A program made the position numbers and the translations under genes. A DNA stretch of 64,000 nt from a virus. This document shows positions 10,394 through 40,916 of the stretch, one piece after another. The notes beneath the pieces were generated by a model. That model saw only the letters and a list, made by a program, of their open reading frames with translations. It was not told the origin of the DNA and searched no databases. Position 1 is the stretch's first letter. Each line of letters starts with the position of its first letter. The stretch is taken from positions 1 to 64,000 of the IMG/VR virus record IMGVR_UViG_3300035698_017305. One strand, given 5' to 3'.

Positions 10394-11479
10394 TTAGACC
10401 AACCCACACAGGCCGTCGTTAGAGGTTACGATGTTAGCGCCCATTGCCGCAAAGCGGGCGAATTCTGCTTCCGCGATTTCATTGAACTTGATCATGGACC
10501 CGTCGGGCAGAGGGGTGTCCGGAACACTGCTCATGCAGTCTTCGACTATATACACCCTCTTTTTCATATTGTCGTTCAGGGCTCGTCCATCCACTCCATC
10601 GAACAGTTGCTGCAAGGATGTGAGGACACAGTGAGACTTGGCCTGCCCAAACACGAACAAGGCATCCAACTTCTCGATTGCCTGGATGACTTCCAGGTTG
10701 AGACCCTGAGCCGTTGGGTACGAGCTGCTCGGTACAGTCTTCTCCGGAGAGAAGATCCCATAATTCTCTGTCATACCCTCTTGTCCCTTGGACAGCACCT
10801 TGGGCTCCATGATTCGGGCCATGCTCCAGAACATTGCGGCTTCAGCCAGCAGGGGCATCAGAGCCCGGTATGCTGCGAACTGGACACAGTGTGTCGGCCA
10901 GAGGACCAGGGGCGGCTTACCATTGGCTGCGAGGTACTCCACATACTCCACAGCGTCCTTCAGGACCATGGTGAAGGGGCGGATTTTGCCTGCCCGCAGA
11001 ACATCAGGGGTGATGACGGTAAACGGTGCGGGGTGGTTGTTGGTTGAGTCGTCCCACCACGACCAGGGATGAAAGATGCTGAAGATGTGATGGGTGTCCA
11101 GGGATGCCCTGATGGAGGTGACGGCATGGCCATGGTTGTACAGCCACTCTGCGGTTTTAGCCACATCTTCTTGTGCTCCAGGAACATATAATGACCCGGT
11201 GGAAGGTCCAAGGACTCGGGCTATGTCTGCTGCCAGTGGCTCTGTATCTGTCACCCCTACGCTGCCAAGGCACTTCTTCACCTGGGCTTCAAACTCACCC
11301 GGGCCTTCCAGGCAGAAATCGGGCTGCATGTCTATCCAGAGGACCCCGATGTTGGGCCGGGCAGGATCTGCGTTAACTGTGTCCCATCCGGAAGCGTTGG
11401 CCGCCGGTTCGATAATGCTCAGGTCCGGTTGGAACATGAGCCCCGCTTTTCTCCTGTCGAAGAATGAAGGCAATGCCAT
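10394..11479 (-). CDS. Nicotinamidase/isochorismatase-fold cysteine hydrolase
   Basis: A 361-residue protein. It shows the nicotinamidase order: catalytic Asp in WIDMQPDFC (D50), metal-ligand region SLDTHH, LWPTHC, and the nucleophile Cys in GQAKSHCV near the C-terminal third. It is longer than typical PncA (about 200 residues), with insertions after DTHH. Nicotinamidases convert nicotinamide to nicotinic acid; a nicotinate phosphoribosyltransferase-like gene at 19340-20491 could take the product onward. It lies between the TerY-like vWA and the kinase gene, so it may share their regulation. Confidence 0.75.
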   Translation of the reverse strand: MALPSFFDRRKAGLMFQPDLSIIEPAANASGWDTVNADPARPNIGVLWIDMQPDFCLEGPGEFEAQVKKCLGSVGVTDTEPLAADIARVLGPSTGSLYVPGAQEDVAKTAEWLYNHGHAVTSIRASLDTHHIFSIFHPWSWWDDSTNNHPAPFTVITPDVLRAGKIRPFTMVLKDAVEYVEYLAANGKPPLVLWPTHCVQFAAYRALMPLLAEAAMFWSMARIMEPKVLSKGQEGMTENYGIFSPEKTVPSSSYPTAQGLNLEVIQAIEKLDALFVFGQAKSHCVLTSLQQLFDGVDGRALNDNMKKRVYIVEDCMSSVPDTPLPDGSMIKFNEIAEAEFARFAAMGANIVTSNDGLCGLV

Positions 11480-16106: not shown

Positions 16107-16991
16107 CTAATCGAACCTATCTCTCCTACGCATCTTCTTCTTCAACTGGGCCATGTGGTCCTCCAGTCTCTTCTCAGCTTCTTTGACCCTATCCTCAGCA
16201 TCTTTGAGCCTAGCCGTCTTAGCGTCTATTCTCTGAAACTCAGGCATGGGCATGGGCGCTCTGGGTAAACCATATCCTCTTCGGCTGCTGACGGGGGGTT
16301 CTATGACATTTTGGAGTTCGGAGTGTATACATGGGTTTCCAATTACCGCCCACAACGCCTTACCTTCAGTCTCCCATCTCCCCTTTTGCTTGTCCGCAAA
16401 CTCTCTCAGGGACTCTGGGGACTCAACGGAGTAGTTGTCAAACCGGTAGAAGTAACGCCACTTCCAGTGGTCGCCTTCCATATAGTATTCCCCAAACCCA
16501 AAGGTCTTGATCCGGCCCCAGTACTTCTTGCTGATGATGTTCCGGGCTATGTCAGCCTCTGGTCTTCCAAACTCAGGCTTAACCAGCATGCCGGTGTGTA
16601 TAGCTCCGATATATCCACCCTTTGTTTTGTACACACATGCTATGTGAGCACCAGCACCACTGTCTAATGGAGTGTGAAAGGAGACTCGGAACAGGCACTT
16701 GTCTTTGTATAACTTGGGTGTGAGGTAATACTTGAACCATATCGCTGCATCCTCACAGTCACCACCTCTGTCCTGATCCGTTTCTTCCACTGTTTTGGGG
16801 TAGCCTCTCCCCACTTCATCAAACTGGTATTCCAGGATTAGGTGCCAGTATAGGAATAGTGTCCAGTCTGTCCCTCTCGTCTCCGCACTGAAAAAGTTAC
16901 AGTATACCCACTCGTAAACCCAGGATATGGGTGATCGCACCACATACCAGATCTTCAGTAGGTATTCCATTTGGTTTCTGTTTAGGGTCAT
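16107..16991 (-). CDS. Transglutaminase-like (papain-fold) protein
   Basis: A 294-residue protein. The core has the Cys motif GGDCEDAAIWFKYYL near residue 88 and a downstream His motif AGAHIACVY near residue 120, the pattern of transglutaminase-like thiol enzymes. The C-terminal 40 residues form a charged coiled coil (DAEDRVKEAEKRLEDH). Members hydrolyse or cross-link peptide bonds; whether this one acts on host proteins, cell wall or a Ubl conjugate is unknown. It is translationally coupled (ATGA) to the HD protein upstream. Confidence 0.65.
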   Translation of the reverse strand: MTLNRNQMEYLLKIWYVVRSPISWVYEWVYCNFFSAETRGTDWTLFLYWHLILEYQFDEVGRGYPKTVEETDQDRGGDCEDAAIWFKYYLTPKLYKDKCLFRVSFHTPLDSGAGAHIACVYKTKGGYIGAIHTGMLVKPEFGRPEADIARNIISKKYWGRIKTFGFGEYYMEGDHWKWRYFYRFDNYSVESPESLREFADKQKGRWETEGKALWAVIGNPCIHSELQNVIEPPVSSRRGYGLPRAPMPMPEFQRIDAKTARLKDAEDRVKEAEKRLEDHMAQLKKKMRRRDRFD

Positions 16992-17578
16992 GGGTATTCT
17001 CCGCATACTTTGAACAAGTCATCTAGTTCCTTCCAGGCGGCCTCTCCTATGCCAGTGTCTAAGGCTTCCCGGAATTTCTTGTGTTCCTTGTGGTACATAA
17101 GCAATTTGTGGTGGGAGTCGGCGCGGGATCGCCGAACATTAGCTATCCTGTCACATAACTTCAACCATGTAGCTGTGGGGTGCCCATCTATTTTCAGATA
17201 GGTCTTCTCATGTCTCTCTTTACGGTTACGCCCCGGTTCATCTGTAACTCTCCATACCGCTTCAGCCACTGATGGACCGAACCAAAACAGTACATCCAGT
17301 TGGGTGACGTTTGTGTCTTCCACTATGTCGTGGAGGTAGGCGCATATGCGTACAAGTATGGGTAGGTTAAACTCGCGGACAATTGAGTCCACATCTTCCA
17401 GGTGGCAGTAATAAGGTTCCCCGTGTCCGTACTCTTGACCTCTATGACACGACTCTGCCATTTCTCTGGCGAGTTGTAGGAACGCTTTATCTGGGGTGGG
17501 TATTGTGCAGAAGACTGATGCAGGCAGGCTGGATCTTGTCCAGACATCCAATGGATTGCAGTTTGGTATGAGAGTCAT
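16988..17578 (-). CDS. HD-domain (p)ppGpp hydrolase-like protein (SpoT/MESH1 type)
   Basis: A 196-residue protein. HD-type metal motifs occur in SpoT/MESH1 order: PYYCHLEDV, ICAYLHDIVEDT (the HD pair) and KLCDRIANVRR. The single-domain size matches small alarmone hydrolases, which remove pyrophosphate from ppGpp and so can dampen a stringent response during infection. No synthetase domain is present. The start ATG is in a TAATG overlap with 17578-17808. Confidence 0.8.
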   Translation of the reverse strand: MTLIPNCNPLDVWTRSSLPASVFCTIPTPDKAFLQLAREMAESCHRGQEYGHGEPYYCHLEDVDSIVREFNLPILVRICAYLHDIVEDTNVTQLDVLFWFGPSVAEAVWRVTDEPGRNRKERHEKTYLKIDGHPTATWLKLCDRIANVRRSRADSHHKLLMYHKEHKKFREALDTGIGEAAWKELDDLFKVCGEYP

Positions 17579-17808
17579 TACCAAGTACTCGATCTAAGCT
17601 GGATCGGTGGGGTTGCATGGACCGTCCATTTAGGTAGAGTGTCCTCGTTACCGTTGGTCAACTCGGCTACCAGATCAGAGGAAGGCCGCCTCCATGGGCC
17701 CCTGGATAACTTATACTGTGCCCATACCCACATTTTAATGAATAGGTTATCCGGCAGCCTTATGTATTCTATCAAGGATTTACGGGGATGATTGCGAATG
17801 AGTATCAT
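17578..17808 (-). CDS. Small basic protein of unknown function
   Basis: A 76-residue protein with an aromatic N-terminal half (LPDNLFIKMWVWAQYKL). The start is ATG behind AGGAG and the stop overlaps the HD gene start (TAATG), so the two are coupled. It is the first gene of a three-gene transcript with the HD and transglutaminase-like genes. Confidence 0.65.
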   Translation of the reverse strand: MILIRNHPRKSLIEYIRLPDNLFIKMWVWAQYKLSRGPWRRPSSDLVAELTNGNEDTLPKWTVHATPPIQLRSSTW

Positions 17809-17832
17809 TGTATTCTCCTATGGGTGGGTAAT

Positions 17833-17906
17833 GCCCGTGGAGGGATTTGAACCCCCGACACAGAGTACTAGAAGCTCCTGCTCTAACCAGACTGAGCTAC
17901 ACAGGC
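17833..17906 (-). tRNA. Predicted amber suppressor tRNA, anticodon CTA
   Basis: A complete 74-nt cloverleaf: acceptor GCCTGTG/CACGGGC, D stem GCTC/GAGC, anticodon loop TTCTAGT (T33, anticodon CTA) and T arm GGGGG-TTCAAAT-CCCTC. The anticodon stem has a C31-A39 mismatch and a G-T pair, so it is weaker than usual. CTA pairs with UAG. The charged amino acid cannot be read from sequence. Confidence 0.8.
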
Positions 17907-17910
17907 TTAT

Positions 17911-18033
17911 GGCGGCGGGAGGAATTGAACCTCCAACCTTCCTAGTCCGTCCAGTGTTCCCAAATCAACAGCATTTGACTACGTGTTGTTTGAAGGACGC
18001 CAAGGATGCATCTACCAATTGAGCTACACCGCC
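17911..18033 (-). tRNA. tRNA-like gene with about 50-nt insertion in the anticodon region
   Basis: The acceptor stem (GGCGGTG/CGCCGCC) and T arm (GGAGG-TTCAATT-CCTCC) are intact and the D arm nearly so (GATGC in place of GAGC). The anticodon arm is expanded to about 60 nt. The insert can fold on its own (GTCC/GGAC closing pair and an inner AACA..TGTT pairing). If TTGGCGT is the loop start the anticodon would be GGC, but this is uncertain. It is either an intron-containing, decayed or recombined tRNA. Confidence 0.55.
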
Positions 18034-18082
18034 TTAGTGGGGATGAGGCTGTCACCTCCCACCCCCCTCTAGTTCAAAGTCC

Positions 18083-18388
18083 TTATAATAGCTTCAGCGA
18101 TCCCACTGCGTCAGCCATATCTCCGGATGGGGGTCCCATGAATGTGTAAGCTGTGGCTTCATTGCCTATGTCCGGCTCCACAAATATAGCCCCGTCTGGG
18201 ATTGATTCCACAAAGTCTTTCAACTCCGATTCGTCCTGGACCTTTAACAACACCATAGTGCTGTCCCAGTCAGCTAACTATCCAGGGGCTGCGTCAGCAA
18301 CGTATTCTGCTACTGAGTGGCAGGCTTGAACAGCTTGTTGGGATTTGCTTAAATCAGCTCTGACTAATGTGTACAGTCGCTTCTTCAT
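18083..18388 (-). CDS. Peptidyl-tRNA hydrolase 2-like gene with in-frame TAG
   Basis: This reads as one 102-codon frame if codon 37 (TAG, 18278-18280) is decoded as an amino acid. Before it: MKKRLYTLVRADLSKSQQAV then QACHSVAEYV. After it: DWDSTMVLLKVQDESELKDF, then a conserved-looking end TYTFMGPPSG. This order of blocks matches the PTH2 family, which frees tRNA from peptidyl-tRNA; normal length is about 115 residues. A tRNA with anticodon CTA lies 180 bases downstream on the same strand. It is either a recoded gene or one broken by a nonsense mutation. It ends in TAA. Confidence 0.65.
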
Positions 18389-18695
18389 CGCTTTCCTCCA
18401 TAGCTGGCTTTGGGATCCTGTAGTCCCCCGATTCGTGTCCCACTTCAGTCACAAAGTCCTGAGCGTATTCGCGTACATCTACACCGAAATGCTTCTCAAT
18501 GAAGTACAGCACAGATCTCTTTGTCGGTTGGTTATGTTCACGATTCTTTTGTTCAATCATACGTAGGGACCGGCCTTTGAGTAAACAATAGGCGATATGA
18601 TTAAATCTCAGGGTTTCTGAGCTAGCAGTGTCCTTCAGATCTTTCTGAAGTTGCTTCAGGTGGGCCATCTTTTCTAGGAACTCTTGTCGTTGCAC
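18354..18695 (-). CDS. Helical protein overlapping the PTH2-like gene
   Basis: A 113-residue, charged and mostly helical protein (EKMAHLKQLQKDLKD, then RSLRMIEQKNREHNQ) with an acidic tail (MEESDEEATVH). The likely start is GTG at 18695 with a weak ribosome binding site. Its last 35 bases overlap the start of the PTH2-like gene in another frame, so the two are probably co-translated. Function unknown. Confidence 0.6.
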   Translation of the reverse strand: MQRQEFLEKMAHLKQLQKDLKDTASSETLRFNHIAYCLLKGRSLRMIEQKNREHNQPTKRSVLYFIEKHFGVDVREYAQDFVTEVGHESGDYRIPKPAMEESDEEATVHISQS

Positions 18696-18773
18696 CTACG
18701 TCATGATCCTGTCCTTTCAGTTACAGGTTATGGTGTATACATGAATGTAACCATCCATGTTCGTGTGTTAAGT

Positions 18774-31686: not shown

Positions 31687-32040
31687 TGGTGGAGGTGGCG
31701 GGAATCGAACCCGCGTCCGCGAACACTTACCGTGCTCATCTACGTGTGTGTCCAACCTTTCTATCCTGAAAGACATGGTTGGCAACGCTTTCAGGACCCC
31801 ACTGCCTTACCCGTGTGGGGAACACCGGGACGGGTTTTGTCAGCTATTACCCGATACTGACAACCGGGGAGTCTAAGGTGACGTTCTAGCCTACAGCGAC
31901 TCTCCGTAGGTAGACCGCGCTACTCTCTAAGCAGCGATGGGAAGTTGATTTTCGGCAACTATCTAGGTTTGTTCTGTAACGTAGAACATCCGACACGCAA
32001 AGCACGACTCAATTATTCCCGTCGAATCCAGGTCACCCCC
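31687..32040 (-). ncRNA. ssrA: Transfer-messenger RNA (tmRNA)
   Basis: The 5' end GGGGGTGACCTGGATTCGAC and 3' end GGTTCGATTCCCGCCACC + TCCACCA are canonical tmRNA termini; GGGGGTG pairs with CACCTCC and CCA is encoded. The tag frame at 31927-31956 reads Ala-Glu-Asn-Gln-Leu-Pro-Ile-Ala-Ala and stops with TAG. It follows TAGTT, where the resume codon is expected. GC-rich helices downstream fit the pseudoknot ring. tmRNA rescues stalled ribosomes and tags the product for proteolysis. It lies 7 bases after tRNA-Glu on the same strand. Confidence 0.93.
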
Positions 32041-37997: not shown

Positions 37998-38006
37998 CTT
38001 ATGGCA
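37998..38006 (-). promoter_or_regulatory. Promoter-like element of the Ubl cassette (TGCCATAAG)
   Basis: The minus-strand CCTGCCATAAGTGGGTC is 48 bases upstream of the Ubl gene. It matches the recurring extended -10 box and is divergent to the plus-strand glycan operon. Confidence 0.55.
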
Positions 38007-38028
38007 GGCTTTTTCTTATATTCTCTAC

Positions 38029-38038
38029 ATGCTATACT
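38029..38038 (+). promoter_or_regulatory. Plus-strand extended -10 (TGCTATACT)
   Basis: TGCTATACT is 23 bases upstream of the glycan-operon start. The -35 region is T-rich (CTTTTTC). Confidence 0.5.
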
Positions 38039-38060
38039 CGGGGCGGAGGGTTATAATTCA

Positions 38061-40916
38061 ATGATTTATGTTCTCACATCTCGCCCTAGCGGTAAGGGGT
38101 GCAAGGCTATGCTCCAACGGGGTAAGTCTTTAGGCATTCCCATCAAAGTCATTACAGGCAACACCGCAATGAGTCCAGGTGACGTGGTATTTGTATACGA
38201 AGCCAAGAAGCCAGCACTCAACACTATCAAGAACAGAACTGATATCACTGTAGTTAATGGTGTTAGGTACAACAAGCAGGGCCAGTATAAGATTCTTGCC
38301 CCGGGCGGTGTACCTGTACCTAACTGGGCTCTGTTAAAGCCGGGCCAGAAAAACCGTTTCGATACAGTGGCTTTCCCCGCTATCATGAAACCCAACGTCG
38401 GGGGATACGCCCGTGGGGTTAAGCTGGTACCCTCAGCAGATAAGGCTAAGTCTATAAGGCTCAAGGAGAATATGATTCTCCAAGAGTATGTGGACTGTAA
38501 GGGGGAGTGTACCAGAGTCCTGATGGTTGGGGACGACCCAGCTATTGTTGTGACCAGGATAGCGCATGATGGGTACATAGCGGCATACGACTTTGGTCGG
38601 AAAGGTAAGTTGGAGTTCACACCCCTGACGGACAAAGAGCTGGAGATATGTATAAAGGCGTGTAAGCTTCTAAAGATCGAGATTGGTGGGGTAGATATCA
38701 TCCGGGACTCCAAAACAGGAGAGCCCTATATACTGGAGGTGAATCACTTCGCAGTACCCTTCTACCTCAAAGAGATGTATAAAGACGCTACAGATACTAT
38801 ATTGAGGTATCTACACAAATTGGAAAAGCCGAGAACTACCAATATCAAAAGGACGAAGGCCGTGCCTACTAAAACCTCTATCAAACCAGCTAAGCCGAGA
38901 GTGCTGTGGATCGTAGATAAGCCAGGGTGGTCCCATGACAACAAGACTGAGGCTATCACCCGTCAATTATCTGATGAGTTTGACTTTGATAAACAGTATT
39001 TGTACCAGTCAGGCAATGTCTACGACTACTCTAAGTACTCACACGTACACATCTCACTGTGGTATTGGCCCGTTCAGCATAAGGACTTCCCAAGACCCCC
39101 CGCAGACATCACTACAACTACCATCAGTAGCTGGCAGTCCTGGGAGAAGTATGGGAGGGCCAAGACAGCGGCTCATGTGAAACATCTGTATGGTGGAGCT
39201 GTTTGTGTGAACCGAGAGCTGTTTAATGAATTCTCTCCTATCATACCTAGGACCTACCACTGCCCCAATGGGGTAGATACCGAAATGTTTACACCAGGAC
39301 CCGCCACCTCAAACCCAAAGTTCACGGTAGGGTTTGCCGGTAACCCCTGGATGCACAAGGGGCGCAAGAAGTACTTCAAGCTGATTAAACCTGCGTTGGA
39401 CTCTTTGAAGAACGTGACTCTACGCACCGCTCTGGGTAAGTACCCATACAAGGACATAAAGCCTCATGCTGAGATGCCCGCGTTTTACCAATCACTGGAT
39501 GCTTACGTCCATGCCGCTGGGGGCAAGTGGGATACAGCCCCTAACCCAGTGTTGGAGGCCGCTGCCTGTGGAATCCCGATAATTATCTCCCCAGTGGGTG
39601 ATTGGAAAGAGTTGTTTGTGGATGGTGAAACCGCGTTGGTGCTGCCTACTGACCCCAATCCTAAGGATATAGTTAATGCTATCAATAGGTTAGCTGGGGA
39701 TAAGAAGCTACAGCGCAAGCTAGCTATTGGGGCTAGGTTCGTAGCAGAGAAGCTTAGCTGGAGTGGGTTGGCTGAGAAGTATAGAAAAGTGTTTAAGGCG
39801 CACAACAGGCCACGGGGAGTTATAAAACCATCCAAGACTAGAACAGGGCTATCCTTAAAGGACAGGTTGGGTAGAAGGGATGCTATGAAGACAACTCTAC
39901 CCACGTTAAATAGTAAGATTAAGAAGTCCCCCAAGGCACAGGTCATAAAATCAAAACCACGCATAGGATTGCTAGTTGATTATAAAGGGTGGGCCTGGGA
40001 TATCAATGCCCATAACATAGCTAAGCACCTATCTCAGTACTACGACTTTGACATATACTATACATCCGGTGGGGGTGGTGGTCGAATACTGTTCCCCGGA
40101 CTAGACCTAGTGCTGTGTTTCAGAATAGATGAGACGCAACGACGAGGTGGTTACGTTAGAAGGATACCTGCCCATAAAAGGTTAGCATCCATATCCAGTT
40201 TTACCAACAAGGTGGCCAAACGGATACTGTCTGATAACAAGGAAGGGGCAAAGTTCCTACGTAACAGTTATGCTGGGGTGGGGGCTGTGTCCAGGGAACT
40301 CGCCGACTTCATTAAACCCTACCACAGACGCGTATACTACATCCCTAGGGGGGTTGAGACAGACCATTTCTTACAGGCTCCTAGGCCAAACGGTAAGAAG
40401 CTAGTGGTGGGTTGGGTAGGGACCCGGGACAGGGCCAACAAAGTGTACCCAGCATTTGAATTAGCTAAGAAGCATCTCGGTGACAAGTTCATTTGGTCTC
40501 CCAGGACAGAGAGTAGGGGGAACCCGGGCAGTCCCAAGTTGACCCATGAGGATATGGCCACCTACTACAGTAAGCTGGATGTGCTAGTTCACACAGCGTG
40601 CCATGACGGCACTCCTAACCCTATCTTTGAAGCTGCCTCATCTGGAGTCTGCATCGTTAGCACCCCGGTCGGGTCAGCCCAGGAGTTTATGCGGGATGGG
40701 GTTAACTGTCTAAAGCTAGAAAATGGGGGCAAGAGGGACATCGCAAGGTCTTTGGTAACTGCGTTAGAAAAGCTAGATGGCAACAGAGAACTAGTTGATA
40801 GGTTCGGTAGGACTGCCTCCAGAGAGATGAGAGATAATTGGGACTGGGAGAAGATCATACCGTTGTACAAACGGATGTTCGACCAATCCCTAACCCGAAG
40901 AAAGGGAGTAAGGTAA
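38061..40916 (+). CDS. ATP-grasp ligase fused to two GT4-type glycosyltransferases
   Basis: 951 residues from the ATG at 38061; GGAGG lies 11 bases upstream, and the earlier ATG at 38001 lacks a ribosome binding site. Residues 1-265: RimK-like ATP-grasp (PAIMKPNVGG, LQEYVD, GGVDIIRD...ILEVN). Residues about 275-590: a first GT-B domain (CPNGVD, VGFAGNPWMHKG, PNPVLEAAACGIPIIIS). Residues about 625-945: a second GT-B domain (YIPRGVET, VGWVGT, TPNPIFEAASSGVCIVS). An amide-ligase plus two sugar transferases in one chain suggests assembly of a decorated glycan or glycopeptide. Confidence 0.85.
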   Translation: MIYVLTSRPSGKGCKAMLQRGKSLGIPIKVITGNTAMSPGDVVFVYEAKKPALNTIKNRTDITVVNGVRYNKQGQYKILAPGGVPVPNWALLKPGQKNRFDTVAFPAIMKPNVGGYARGVKLVPSADKAKSIRLKENMILQEYVDCKGECTRVLMVGDDPAIVVTRIAHDGYIAAYDFGRKGKLEFTPLTDKELEICIKACKLLKIEIGGVDIIRDSKTGEPYILEVNHFAVPFYLKEMYKDATDTILRYLHKLEKPRTTNIKRTKAVPTKTSIKPAKPRVLWIVDKPGWSHDNKTEAITRQLSDEFDFDKQYLYQSGNVYDYSKYSHVHISLWYWPVQHKDFPRPPADITTTTISSWQSWEKYGRAKTAAHVKHLYGGAVCVNRELFNEFSPIIPRTYHCPNGVDTEMFTPGPATSNPKFTVGFAGNPWMHKGRKKYFKLIKPALDSLKNVTLRTALGKYPYKDIKPHAEMPAFYQSLDAYVHAAGGKWDTAPNPVLEAAACGIPIIISPVGDWKELFVDGETALVLPTDPNPKDIVNAINRLAGDKKLQRKLAIGARFVAEKLSWSGLAEKYRKVFKAHNRPRGVIKPSKTRTGLSLKDRLGRRDAMKTTLPTLNSKIKKSPKAQVIKSKPRIGLLVDYKGWAWDINAHNIAKHLSQYYDFDIYYTSGGGGGRILFPGLDLVLCFRIDETQRRGGYVRRIPAHKRLASISSFTNKVAKRILSDNKEGAKFLRNSYAGVGAVSRELADFIKPYHRRVYYIPRGVETDHFLQAPRPNGKKLVVGWVGTRDRANKVYPAFELAKKHLGDKFIWSPRTESRGNPGSPKLTHEDMATYYSKLDVLVHTACHDGTPNPIFEAASSGVCIVSTPVGSAQEFMRDGVNCLKLENGGKRDIARSLVTALEKLDGNRELVDRFGRTASREMRDNWDWEKIIPLYKRMFDQSLTRRKGVR

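Follow-up and report, generated by a model that had tools for sequence, protein, structure and literature searches.

The viral DNA analysed here, hereafter the window, corresponds to positions 1-64,000 of a phage record 132,813 bases long. It contains a locus in which every feature lies on the minus strand: a putative amber suppressor tRNA with a CUA anticodon, a gene for a PTH2-like peptidyl-tRNA hydrolase interrupted by an in-frame TAG, and a partner gene, gene A, directly upstream of the latter (Table 1). A further tRNA-like gene sits between PTH2 and the tRNA(CUA), and an HD_4 domain gene is the downstream neighbour of the group.

Table 1. Coordinates of the features at the locus, numbered along the window
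Feature	Position	Strand	Evidence or remark
HD_4 (SpoT/MESH1-type) domain gene	16988..17584	-	Pfam HD_4, 33.2 bits
Putative amber suppressor tRNA, anticodon CUA	17832..17906	-	ARAGORN, Rfam tRNA
tRNA-like gene, anticodon arm with an insert of 29 nt or more	17910..18033	-	Rfam tRNA, 39.9 bits
PTH2-like peptidyl-tRNA hydrolase gene	18083..18388	-	phrog_1866, weak Pfam PTH2, AlphaFold, Foldseek
In-frame TAG, codon 37 of the PTH2-like gene	18278..18280	-	loop between helix 1 and strand 2
Gene A, partner overlapping PTH2, motif RxxHIAYCLLKGRSL	18354..18704	-	best start ATG 18704-18702
In-frame TAG, codon 3 of gene A	18696..18698	-	reading M-T-*-V

The first-pass annotation had described a tRNA with anticodon CTA next to a PTH2-like gene carrying TAG at codon 37, ending in TAA and resembling its family on both sides of the TAG. 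Each part of this description is confirmed, and the minus-strand location, the TAG at codon 3 of gene A, the atypical loop of the tRNA and the tRNA-like gene with its insert come in addition to it. The tRNA is placed on the minus strand by both ARAGORN and Rfam (56.5 bits, E 1.7e-9) and folds as a cloverleaf presenting CUA. Its anticodon loop, UUCUAGU, departs from the usual U33-CUA-A37 arrangement in having G37 and U38, and the stem contains a C31-A39 mismatch; A37 is found in 63 of 65 aligned tRNAs. An exact-sequence search for this tRNA gave no match. The neighbouring tRNA-like gene is called by ARAGORN only when introns are allowed.

Translation of the PTH2-like frame gives MKKRLYTLVRADLSKSQQAVQACHSVAEYVADAAPG*LADWDST...SLKLL*, the first asterisk being the TAG at codon 37 and the second the TAA that ends the frame. 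The match to phrog_1866 spans residues 1-100, end to end across the TAG (E 7.5e-10). The Pfam PTH2 profile (PF01981) aligns with residues 5-63 at 19.5 bits, under the 23-bit cut-off, and the relative L121 scores 43.2 bits against the same profile. An AlphaFold model built from the family alignment has a pLDDT of 95.6, and the top Foldseek matches are archaeal and human PTH2 structures (TM 0.77, E 1.9e-5). On the basis of this model, the window protein is confidently predicted to have the PTH2 fold. The phage family resembles archaeal and eukaryotic Pth2 enzymes (MJ0051, 2zv3; AF2095, 3erj; human Bit1, 1q7s) in fold and overall sequence, but it differs from them in the region of DAG-x-TQ, which is replaced by EPD-x-GN, and at the archaeal GKGK lysine. 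In an alignment with 2zv3, 24bt and AF2095, the phage family retains a Thr and an acidic residue, whereas this lysine is not conserved, which makes hydrolase activity uncertain.

Gene A overlaps the PTH2-like gene by 35 nt and begins ATG-ACG-TAG-GTG. A Shine-Dalgarno sequence, AAAGGA, is well placed for the ATG and too distant from the GTG that follows the TAG. No other gene of the phage combines a Shine-Dalgarno sequence, ATG, one codon, TAG and a long frame. A total of 61 distinct matches to the family, which has the motif RxxHIAYCLLRGRTLEQIE, were found, and most of them immediately precede PTH2; the arrangement found in the window is frequent among relatives without being universal. The two genes are fused in frame in L076, L089, L104, L115 and L122, and a lone TAG separates them in L081. 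An early TAG was considered as a general trait of gene A and rejected, being restricted to the window, with an internal TAG in L070. Neither Pfam nor PHROGs assigns gene A to a family; its predicted structure is all-helical with moderate confidence, and a search for structural matches returned none.

Use of TAG in the window phage

The window phage reads the standard genetic code. TAG terminates 14 of 86 long ORFs and 24 of the 123 ORFs of at least 90 codons, in keeping with the initial description of TAG as a normal stop, and only two genes look interrupted. Genome-wide reassignment of UAG (code 15) could be invoked, since the phage has both a CUA tRNA and in-frame TAGs. Indeed, the TAG-recoded crAss-like and Lak phages likewise combine a phage tRNA(CUA) and in-frame UAG codons with a standard-code host (PMC9523058, PMC10879173). 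However, taking TAG as sense raises the coding density only from 0.85 to 0.88 (0.86 for the TGA control), and this gain, together with the terminating TAGs and the two interrupted-looking genes, makes such recoding extremely improbable; it was rejected. Contrary to code-15 phages, where TAG is sense throughout the genome, UAG here is still a normal stop, and in-frame UAG is concentrated in the gene adjacent to the tRNA.

Searches with large proteins of the window and of the rest of the phage found no close relative of it. The window also encodes a tmRNA (31687-32040, minus strand; tag AENQLPIAA; Rfam, 126 bits), another component of ribosome rescue. On the plus strand, 38001-40916 encodes a large protein in which a RimK-like ATP-grasp domain is joined to a group 1 glycosyltransferase domain.

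PTH2 genes and tRNA(CUA) in related viruses

In the seven viral contigs found with the window protein, a CUA tRNA is present near the PTH2-related gene in all seven cases and is usually the sole tRNA within 10 kb. A profile search yielded 80 PTH2 loci, reduced to 76 non-redundant viral contigs after removal of duplicates. A CUA tRNA lies within 1.5 kb of PTH2 in 53 of these 76 loci. Counted by length of sequence, 57 CUA tRNAs occur in 239 kb near PTH2 versus 5 in 1,099 kb further out, a 52-fold enrichment, compared with 1.9-fold for other tRNAs (odds ratio 28, p 3e-21). The 57 near CUA tRNAs all share the strand of PTH2, and 23 lie no more than 100 nt downstream of it. The window follows this arrangement, with its CUA tRNA less than 1.5 kb away on the same strand. 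Control DNA-polymerase loci contained no tRNA of any kind. In a blind test in the reverse direction, starting only from a DNA pattern of CUA tRNAs, PTH2 was recovered in 19 of 46 confirmed CUA-tRNA loci, many of which are incomplete.

The CUA tRNAs of the relatives are diverse in sequence (median identity 0.60), and their anticodon loop is nearly constant, CUCUAAA or UUCUAAA. Among loci without a called CUA tRNA, one has a UUA tRNA and several carry opal-type (UCA) tRNAs, in which UUCAA is part of an 8-nt loop. Such UUCAA-loop tRNAs are observed downstream of PTH2 in L096, L098, L099, L101, L106, L107, L116 and L118; sometimes two in tandem, they could serve opal or four-base decoding.

The HD gene was also considered as a general partner of PTH2 and rejected, a similar gene being found 0.3-1.1 kb downstream in only 6 of 81 loci. 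In the phages XacN1 and CM1, PTH2 is a C-terminal fusion to an HD-domain protein; in the window, the HD_4 gene adjoins the PTH2 and tRNA genes.

In-frame TAG codons in PTH2 genes

A six-frame search for stop codons spanned by homology, run against non-overlapping genes, pointed to PTH2. Within 105 distinct PTH2 domains, in-frame stops are TAG in eight cases, including that of the window, and neither TGA nor TAA occurs. The bias extends to the beginning of the gene. When the first upstream stop preceded by ATG and one to eight codons was scored ahead of the PTH2 domain, it was TAG in 31 cases, TGA in one and TAA in one, as against 50 TAG, 58 TGA and 68 TAA among the early stops of control ORFs from the same loci (p 2e-12). 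The early-TAG bias is, at the level of sequence, specific to the PTH2 gene. The early TAG usually stands at codon 3-4, most commonly at codon 3 (ATG-NNN-TAG), with readings such as MT*IKN, MA*IKK, MS*GAT, ML*NKT and others. Often, no alternative start exists between this TAG and the first strand of the fold. Of the 31 cases, L124 is questionable, as its TAG is followed by a good start codon, and it was excluded from the TAG label on the tree. L124 is a relative of Myrna, whose start-TAG was rejected since a better-spaced Shine-Dalgarno sequence serves the GTG past the TAG. In L142 and L007, an apparent frameshift occurs after codon 28 of PTH2, behind the early TAG, and may reflect an error or recoding. 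A genome scan added two MAG loci, one of which (Planctomycetales) has both an early TAG and a CUA tRNA.

Several cultured phages share the early TAG. PTH2 starts with ATG ACG CAC TAG in Serratia phage BF and Erwinia phage pEa_SNUABM_47, ATG GCA CAA TAG in Cronobacter GAP32 and Pectobacterium CBB, ATG GCT CAC TAG in Xanthomonas XbC2, ATG CTG TAG in Salmonella Arash and ATG ACT TAG in Acinetobacter ME3. A CUA tRNA was confirmed in BF, GAP32, CBB, XbC2, Arash and ME3. In the public records of these phages, PTH2 is mostly unannotated or annotated from an internal start only; the TAG is probably the reason why it was truncated or missed in several of them. XacN1 (L061) and CM1 (L274) have CUA tRNAs and a TAG-free PTH2. 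Klebsiella RaK2 also has a TAG-free PTH2, and a CUA tRNA was looked for there and not found.

The short early frames call to mind the bar minigenes of phage lambda (AUG-AUA-UAA), which are toxic when Pth is lacking (PMC8012679). By analogy, ATG-NNN-TAG could cause drop-off of peptidyl-tRNA and thereby tune or sense the level of the hydrolase, and the prevalence of codon 3 would fit this idea. However, such a minigene would require neither TAG over TAA or TGA nor a CUA tRNA, it would leave the mid-gene TAGs unexplained, and the frequent lack of a start codon ahead of the fold is at odds with it. We therefore regard it as a distinctly poor candidate.

The nucleotide that follows the TAG is also biased. 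It is a purine in 27 of 27 early TAGs and in 7 of 7 internal TAGs of the relatives, whereas ordinary TAG stops have one in 53 of 102 cases. A purine at position +4 raises amber suppression, according to the work of Bossi as cited in PMC6266110. On a tree of 101 PTH2 domains, about 16 changes are counted, the eight internal TAGs being eight separate changes, these counts being approximate because the alignment has few columns. A tRNA is present together with a TAG-free PTH2 in 38 loci of at least 10 kb, which indicates that gating by UAG is not universal.

These last data could be taken to mean that the tRNA is kept for another reason and that TAGs simply pile up in PTH2, where they would be harmless, without any switch: the internal TAGs are scattered in position and each arises on its own in the tree, and many loci have the tRNA and no TAG. 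Against this, the other genes of the loci show no near-start TAG bias and only isolated convincing internal TAGs, as in L108, and the early TAGs recur at codon 3-4 with all the relatives' TAGs in a purine context. Neutral tolerance thus appears rather improbable. In L108, the gene concerned (10695-11324) encodes an HD-domain protein and lies between PTH2 and two CUA tRNAs; a Q occupies the position of its TAG in the L106 and L098 homologues.

For the window itself, the alternative is that the TAG is no more than a nonsense mutation, both PTH2 and the tRNA beside it being in decay; the arrangement would then be real elsewhere and broken here. The atypical loop and mismatched stem of the tRNA favour this reading, as do the T found at +4 after the codon-37 TAG, where relatives have a purine, and the long branch of the window PTH2 on the tree, with no close relatives found. 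Judged from the loop and the TAG context, both of which are atypical, suppression may be weak in this phage. Nevertheless, the 64 codons past the TAG outscore 93% of equally long fragments of genuine phage genes and every fragment read in a wrong frame. Since these codons score as strong coding sequence, the tail of PTH2 does not appear to have decayed. Moreover, the residues conserved in the family are kept after the TAG up to the natural TAA, with no frameshift or second stop, and the adjacent gene A has its own TAG at codon 3 behind a well placed start. Decay at this locus is accordingly viewed as unlikely.

A candidate UAG-gated cassette

The reading that we favour, with a probability of about 0.78, is that the locus represents a divergent member of a widespread cassette in which PTH2 is gated by UAG and made by means of the phage's own suppressor tRNA(CUA). 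The cassette would consist of a PTH2-fold gene, a co-directional tRNA(CUA) and often the small upstream gene A, and would be carried by phages in which UAG elsewhere serves as a stop. The linkage with the tRNA, a bias towards TAG alone that is confined to PTH2, the purine context and the repeated origins lead us to infer that the UAG of PTH2 is read through by the phage tRNA. If so, the PTH2 protein would report suppressor activity, its yield being limited by the presence and charging of the phage tRNA and by its competition with RF1 at UAG. Since many loci have the pair and no TAG, PTH2 was probably linked in function to the tRNA at first, with gating acquired later and repeatedly. The idea that suppressor activity switches on a rescue enzyme, voiced in the first-pass annotation for this locus, gains support from the CUA tRNA found beside PTH2 in relatives, many of which have their own in-frame TAG. 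The finding held there to speak against it, relatives in which a sense codon goes together with the absence of a suppressor tRNA, is not what the survey returned, the tRNA being retained in most loci. One qualification concerns the position of the stop, PTH2 being usually gated at codon 3-4 and the codon-37 TAG of the window belonging to the internal cases.

What the enzyme would do is a more tentative matter. Pth recycles short peptidyl-tRNAs (PMC10192219), and minigenes in which a stop follows the start codon become toxic when Pth is absent (PMC8012679). Peptidyl-tRNA would be expected from suppression and from early stalling, and the enzyme might clear the peptidyl-tRNA that arises from suppression or drop-off. 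In that case, PTH2 would be made in proportion to suppression and would limit its damage. This raises the possibility, for which we would give less than even odds, of a homeostatic circuit of nonsense suppression, where the UAG-gated hydrolase removes the peptidyl-tRNA that suppression creates, perhaps that of the suppressor tRNA itself. Alternatively, the gate might act as a clock rather than as a feedback, PTH2 being made late, after phage tRNAs have accumulated, and serving general tRNA recycling. Phage tRNAs would indeed need transcription and maturation before the gene becomes readable, and PTH2 is found in jumbo phages generally (PMC7824862). The association of PTH2 with the CUA tRNA specifically, even when no other tRNA is nearby, argues against a clock of this kind, which we consider possible and hold with little confidence.

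The bacterial RF2 gene prfB is autoregulated, an early in-frame UGA being passed by a +1 frameshift. The cassette resembles prfB in that a gene concerned with translation quality would be gated by an early in-frame stop that reports the state of translation. It differs from prfB in that the stop would be read by a cognate phage suppressor tRNA and in that the product is PTH2-like, not a release factor. A likeness also exists with the lambda bar minigenes and host Pth, with a stop almost directly after the start and a link to peptidyl-tRNA hydrolase (PMC8012679); bar is a toxic two-codon ORF ended by UAA, whereas here the short leader would run through UAG into the hydrolase gene. The PTH2 of jumbo phages (PMC7824862) and the CUA tRNAs of XacN1 (PMC5852040) have been noted separately, and neither description reports the linkage or UAG within related PTH2 genes. 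The authors of the XacN1 study sought target genes of their suppressor tRNAs and found none (PMC5852040). In the open-licence literature, we found no report of the linkage between PTH2 and CUA tRNA, though its components have been described separately.

The presence of CUA tRNAs in phages whose genomes are not recoded has so far been a puzzle, and the PTH2 gene is a candidate for their dedicated target. The unexplained pairing of this tRNA with PTH2 becomes a testable circuit, with laboratory phages available as systems, and it hints at a natural blueprint for stop-codon suppression that limits itself. If this is true, the UCA (opal-type) tRNAs found next to the PTH2 gene would extend the principle beyond UAG.
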